Assembly: GCA_002898315.1 (NCBI GenBank)
Contig: BEHV01000005.1
Coordinates: forward strand, 1-64,000
Direction of reading: 5' to 3'
Source of the DNA: a bacterium HR19
GTDB lineage: Bacteria > Calescibacteriota > Calescibacteriia > Calescibacteriales > Calescibacteriaceae
DNA: 64,000 bases
The position numbers were made by a program, and so were the translations under genes. Below are positions 57,339-57,693 of this stretch, in pieces (the first letter of the stretch is position 1; the number at the start of each line of letters is the position of its first letter). The notes under the pieces are model-generated. The model ran no database searches, was not told the origin of the DNA, and saw nothing but the letters and a program-made list of their open reading frames with translations.

Positions 57339-57414
57339 TGGTCGGGGCGACCGGACTTGAACCGGCGACCTCCGGCTCCCGAAGCCGGCGCGCTACCACC
57401 TACGCTACGCCCCG
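57339..57414 (-). tRNA. tRNA-Pro (anticodon CGG), CCA encoded
   Basis: The acceptor CGGGGCG/CGCCCCG, discriminator A, encoded CCA, anticodon loop TTCGGGA and T arm give a full cloverleaf. The anticodon CGG reads CCG. The gene stands at the head of lapA-pyrF-hldC. Confidence 0.94.
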
Positions 57415-57484
57415 AAATCAAAATAAAAAATAGAAAAAAGCAAAACAAAAAACAATTCAACAAAATAAATTAAACCAAAATAAA

Positions 57485-57655
57485 GTGACTTCCTCCCCTC
57501 AATGAAATGAGAGGCTTCCCGCTTCAGGATGGAACTTTCGCTCCCTCTGATGGGCATAAGTTCGGGACAGCCCATCCCTACCACCCTTTTTAGGCGGGTG
57601 AGACCCTTTAAGGCAGCCTTTTAAAGCAGCTTTGTTATCGCTGCTTTTTTCATAT
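57485..57655 (-). mobile_element. Solo IS200/IS605-type end element resembling a TnpB guide-RNA (omega-RNA) scaffold
   Basis: On the minus strand this GC-richer island starts with a perfect 8-bp hairpin AAAGCAGC/GCTGCTTT (57623-57647), continues with GGGTCTCACCCGCC and a GATGGGCTGTCCC region containing a 6-bp stem (57550-57575), and ends GAAGCGGGAAGCCTCTCATT plus GAGGGGAGGAAGTCAC. These 3' sequences are the familiar right-end/omega-RNA end of IS605-family tnpB elements, which I recognise from memory. No tnpA or tnpB frame is present. It may be a non-autonomous (PATE-like) copy or a domesticated RNA. Boundaries are approximate. The 279 bp between tRNA-Pro and the HDOD gene hold only this. Confidence 0.55.
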
Positions 57656-57693
57656 AATTTTAAATATCTTGTATCTAAAAATTTTAAATAAAA

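Follow-up and report, generated by a model that had tools for sequence, protein, structure and literature searches.

The minus strand of the window, the whole 64,000-nucleotide stretch analysed, carries at positions 57485-57675 a non-autonomous IS200/IS605-family element of the PATE type, 191 bp in length. We favour, with a probability of roughly 0.75, the reading that this element arose by an internal deletion which removed tnpA and tnpB from its parent but spared two near-terminal palindromes and a complete ωRNA scaffold, and that it would be mobilised, and its emptied site cleaved, by proteins supplied in trans. The bounds follow from a sister genome that lacks the insert and from the ends themselves, which run from G, directly after TTTA, to GTCAC. 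Read on the minus strand from 57675 to 57485, TTTA is followed by GATACAAG, and GAGGGGAGGAAGTCAC closes the element and is followed by TTTATTTTGG. The TTTA at the left junction (57676-57679, minus strand) is the insertion target and presumed TAM, and TTTA likewise stands before other copies in the genomes G014 and G208. An earlier note on this DNA had given the interval as 57485-57655; its right edge was exact, while the left edge lies at about 57675, 20 bp further out. The minus-strand motifs named there were found as described: GGGAAGCC lies near 57520, and the last base of GAGGGGAGGAAGTCAC is at 57485.

The element has near-terminal palindromes but no terminal inverted repeats, its ends reading GATACAAG and GAAGTCAC. 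The left palindrome (57623-57647, minus strand) is a 5' hairpin, AAAGCAGC-GATAACAAA-GCTGCTTT, whose loop is conserved in other tnpB-less copies; the left end of the window copy lacks the large palindrome of complete elements. The right palindrome, CCTCTCATTTCATTGAGGGG (57495-57514, minus strand), is also the 3' hairpin of the ωRNA, as indicated by sequence, scaffold alignment and covariation. The TnpB ωRNA scaffold occupies 57485-57605 of the minus strand, where the covariance model R1 scored 118.6 bits (the window copy being within its training set) and covariation was found. The 16 nt of host DNA at 57469-57484 on the minus strand (TTTATTTTGGTTTAAT) would be the guide, a position assigned by analogy with the ISDra2 reRNA (PMC8612924). 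The region folds better than its shuffles (z -2.9). At 191 bp the element is too short for a transposase and contains no tnpA or tnpB ORF, and neither gene occurs in the ORF list of the local neighbourhood (54-62 kb). The description of the element as solo is right locally, but not genome-wide. A tRNA-Pro (CGG) gene is located at 57339-57414 on the same strand, and the element lies 70 nt upstream of it.

Three tnpB-less copies were detected in the window genome (G000), at unrelated sites and with different flanks each time. The assembly is 82% complete, which sets the scope of all searches within this genome. Such a search found a full-length copy on contig C6 (86% identity, E 1e-53) and a partial copy on contig C1 (86% over 125 bp, E 2e-37), and the last 45 bp of the element recur at 84% directly behind the only tnpB of the genome. 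The signal in the window is therefore not due to chance. The earlier note had proposed looking for a TnpB elsewhere with the same right end; the one found carries a clearly different scaffold. A fifth ωRNA-like match, strongly decayed (29 bits), is present at C17:23470-23600 (L171 571-701). A 24-bp match in genome G024 (L018) was set aside as an apparent chance resemblance to the start of a coding sequence.

The genome G002, from the same genus, keeps the neighbouring sequences without the insert at both the window site and the C1 site. At the window site, flanks of 281 bp and 1023 bp join directly except for a few AT-rich drift bases, which blur this junction with respect to target duplication. 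At the C1 site the flanks abut with neither loss nor duplication, defining the ends within one ambiguous base and showing that no target duplication accompanies this copy. The element is also absent from the C6 site in G002, where the intergenic sequence differs and the exact junction is unreadable. Since IS605 excision leaves no scar, the empty sites could reflect either an insertion in one lineage or a precise loss from the other, and judged from these comparisons the unit is mobile in both cases.

Sequence comparison indicates that the class is derived by internal deletion from tnpB-bearing (tnpA plus tnpB) IS605 elements, because the solo ends in G014 are nearly identical to those of a complete element, the C1 copy retains a left end and tnpB codons, and a copy in G002 retains a tnpB remnant. 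G014, a single contig of 1.54 Mb assigned to the Aquificota from named relatives (Desulfurobacteriaceae, Aquificaceae) in a pattern scan, contains a complete IS605 element in which tnpB is intact and a tnpA-like coding sequence was recognised by eye. It also contains three near-identical solos; their leftmost 78 bp and rightmost 115 bp correspond to the ends of the complete element at 96% and 95%, respectively. The right end of the window element matches this complete element at 77% over 87 bp. The left end of the C1 copy matches it at 91% over 57 bp; the C1 copy matches both ends of the complete element, and remnants of the 3' codons of tnpB are also present. In the G002 copy, the tnpB remnant IPQHFCIEGNKLKIPNLK was detected by tblastn, and upstream of it KQEEFLTRQIVCCRFV was read by eye against the TnpB N-terminus. 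The first alternative of the earlier note, a PATE-type IS605 element whose right end is ωRNA-like, is thus upheld by the repeat copies, the empty sites, the homology to complete IS605 elements and the covariation of the scaffold.

The scaffold alignment comprised 13 sequences, from which R1 was built. Three stems covary, with 91.9% of cells paired and nine pairs changed on both sides, a result equalled by none of 500 shuffles; slid controls paired in less than 50% of cells. All three stems are retained in the window copy, and some pairs are broken in the C6 and C1 copies. Complete relatives share the scaffold at their right end, where it overlaps the 3' codons of tnpB. The model matched in 76 of 136 Aquificota genomes, many of the matches being directly behind tnpB, and in 14 of the 386 genomes of a broad sample, Aquificota among them; 26 matches were found in G208. 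From these matches the scaffold looks centred on the Aquificota, and its occurrence in the lineage of the window suggests horizontal transfer.

Many tnpB-less copies, here and in other (heat-loving) bacteria, carry a hairpin with the loop GATARCYAA 5' of the scaffold. The loop motif was present within about 110 nt of the scaffold in 24 of about 49 tnpB-less copies, mostly at a distance of 16-34 nt, and tnpB-linked copies lack it at that place. A strict uninterrupted stem was found in 14 of 44 tnpB-less copies and in 0 of 34 tnpB-linked ones (shuffles 0.2%). Covariation of the stem was analysed by permutation: across seven lineages with differing stem sequences, 38 of 42 cells pair, and none of 5040 permutations pairs better than the true arrangement. 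Selection of the hairpins went by the loop, although for two of them the stem was already visible when they were recognised, and G208 alone contributes many of the examples. A near-consensus σ70-like promoter (at least 10/12, at most 130 nt from the scaffold) was identified in 5 of 16 solos and in 1 of 16 tnpB-linked copies; in the window copy, which has the 5' hairpin, a search for a σ70 promoter gave none that was convincing. As a separate observation, in L093, L095, L143, L144 and L147 the loop letters GATAACCAA occur 300 nt upstream of the scaffold, within the intact tnpB RuvC-II codons GDNQAVIVEDL, and the hairpin of the solos may have been taken from these codons.

We infer from these sequence features that the group consists of self-contained mobile ωRNA genes and not of mere wreckage, because a covarying hairpin precedes the scaffold in many relatives and a strong promoter does so in some. 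A broader proposal, which we put forward tentatively and at somewhat less than even odds, is that such elements are widespread free-standing ωRNA genes, made up of the GATARCYAA hairpin, the scaffold, a guide from the flank and, in some lineages, their own σ70 promoter, and that they live as parasites of TnpA, which moves them, and of TnpB, which provides guided re-copying. It is rather doubtful that the solos are instead inert relics without RNA function, in which the scaffold would persist only through its overlap with the right end recognised by TnpA, and the 5' hairpin would be a left-end palindrome acting in DNA form for TnpA. Consistent with such relics are the missing cognate TnpB and TnpA in G000, the broken stems of the C6 and C1 copies, the lack of a recognisable promoter in the window copy and, in the window and C6 copies, a hairpin placed close to the left end. 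However, stem 1 and the central stem, which lie 5' of the right-end palindrome, still covary, and several solos have promoters. In G014 and G208, moreover, the 5' hairpin is additional to the usual left-end palindrome and so is not needed as one.

Returning to the PATE-type element with an intact scaffold, a tnpB-less unit of this kind could in principle use both TnpA and TnpB in trans. IS605 TnpA uses the end palindromes for excision and insertion. If a Y1 TnpA were present, it would cut the element out as single-stranded DNA and insert this anew beside TTTA. If a cognate TnpB were present, the RNA of the element, once transcribed, would take as its guide the host DNA just past its 3' end and direct cleavage of the emptied TTTA-flanked site, which would favour re-copying of the element.

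Partners of this kind were sought in the assembled 82% of G000, where no Y1_Tnp match and no intact cognate TnpB were found. The only TnpB of the assembly, on contig C5 at about 89880-91150 (L031 1092-2351) and outside the window, is interrupted by an in-frame TAG, and its scaffold type is clearly different from that of the element. The window copy is therefore probably stranded, or reliant on proteins encoded by incoming DNA or in the portion of the genome missing from the assembly. The same TnpB lacks the canonical RuvC-II Glu (IAIQDDS) and has, five residues ahead of its zinc ribbon, a Glu (YEPTTKTCSFC), an arrangement resembling the "alternative E" described previously (PMC10711439).

The second alternative of the earlier note was a domesticated guide RNA acting with a TnpB encoded elsewhere; on this view the element is retained for guiding a TnpB-like protein to some target in the host. 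The intact scaffold and the tRNA-Pro gene 70 nt downstream of the element are in its favour. The other observations make it very improbable: the site is empty in G002, the guides differ among the three G000 copies, and the only TnpB has an in-frame stop and belongs with another scaffold type. Searched against the genome, the guide of the window copy matches perfectly only at its own site; the one further site, with 1 mismatch, lacks TTTA, so that a second TTTA-flanked target is absent. A TldR-like domesticated pair combines a conserved position and guide with an intact partner protein, and these features were not found here.

The PATEs of Haloquadratum (PMC3119063) are short and transposase-less, with near-terminal palindromes and neither terminal inverted repeats nor target duplication, and were attributed to core deletion of IS605-type elements; one of them, HqIRS71, keeps part of the C-terminal coding region of tnpB. 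The window element resembles them in its shortness, lack of a transposase gene and of terminal inverted repeats, near-terminal palindromes and IS605 derivation, but it is bacterial and has a full covarying ωRNA scaffold, and many of its relatives add a conserved 5' hairpin and some a promoter. A 2023 Nature paper on TnpB-driven spread is said to mention PATEs. The formation of PATEs from IS605 by core deletion (PMC3119063, a paper of 2011 that predates ωRNAs) and the ωRNAs of TnpB are already known. An incomplete literature search turned up no description of solo ωRNA units that are mobile and bear a conserved, covarying hairpin on their 5' side, which is a lead to novelty rather than proof of it. 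The TnpB of ISDra2 works with a right-end RNA whose guide comes from the flank, and its cut falls in the emptied site, adjacent to the TAM (PMC8612924). Like that ωRNA (reRNA), the window scaffold lies at the right end, its guide would by analogy come from the 3' flank, and TTTA at the left junction is in the TAM position; unlike it, the element is without tnpB, and its 5' end is a separate hairpin instead of tnpB mRNA. If the reading of these elements as mobile ωRNA genes is correct, miniature IS605 elements would not be just passive passengers of the transposase but would also bring along the guide RNA by which TnpB is recruited to the donor sites of the elements themselves, and a large population of protein-less elements would be served by TnpB in trans. 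It would also bear on how a TnpB-guide pair could come apart, with the protein encoded by one gene and the guides by free RNA genes, as in CRISPR systems.

At gathering scores, the Rfam search detected only tRNAs within the window. RAGATH-18 (RF03064) matched the central hairpin of the tnpB-linked L027 weakly (34.7 bits, gathering 44.9) and gave no match to the window element at E up to 10. Among RAGATH-18 reRNAs 64% adjoin IS607 TnpB, so that many do not (PMC11061315); the family belongs with IS607 elements, which use a serine recombinase, unlike the IS605-type element of the window. The best Rfam match of the window element was HgcC (RF00062), at 57472-57580 with 20.3 bits and E 0.01, an archaeal family for which Rfam gives no function. 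That an unrelated known structured RNA such as HgcC covers the interval, which the earlier note had named as grounds for rejecting its claim, is nevertheless extremely improbable. The score is far below the gathering score of 50, and the family also weakly matches, at the same place, tnpB-linked and solo ωRNAs (L028, L029, L034 and L139), those of L028 and L029 lying behind tnpB. In T. kodakarensis, HgcC1-3 are sense transcripts from within transposase genes, and HgcC4/5 are expressed away from such genes (PMC4247193). In archaeal IS605 elements HgcC probably serves as the ωRNA, and it is more likely a counterpart of the element described here than a rival to it.
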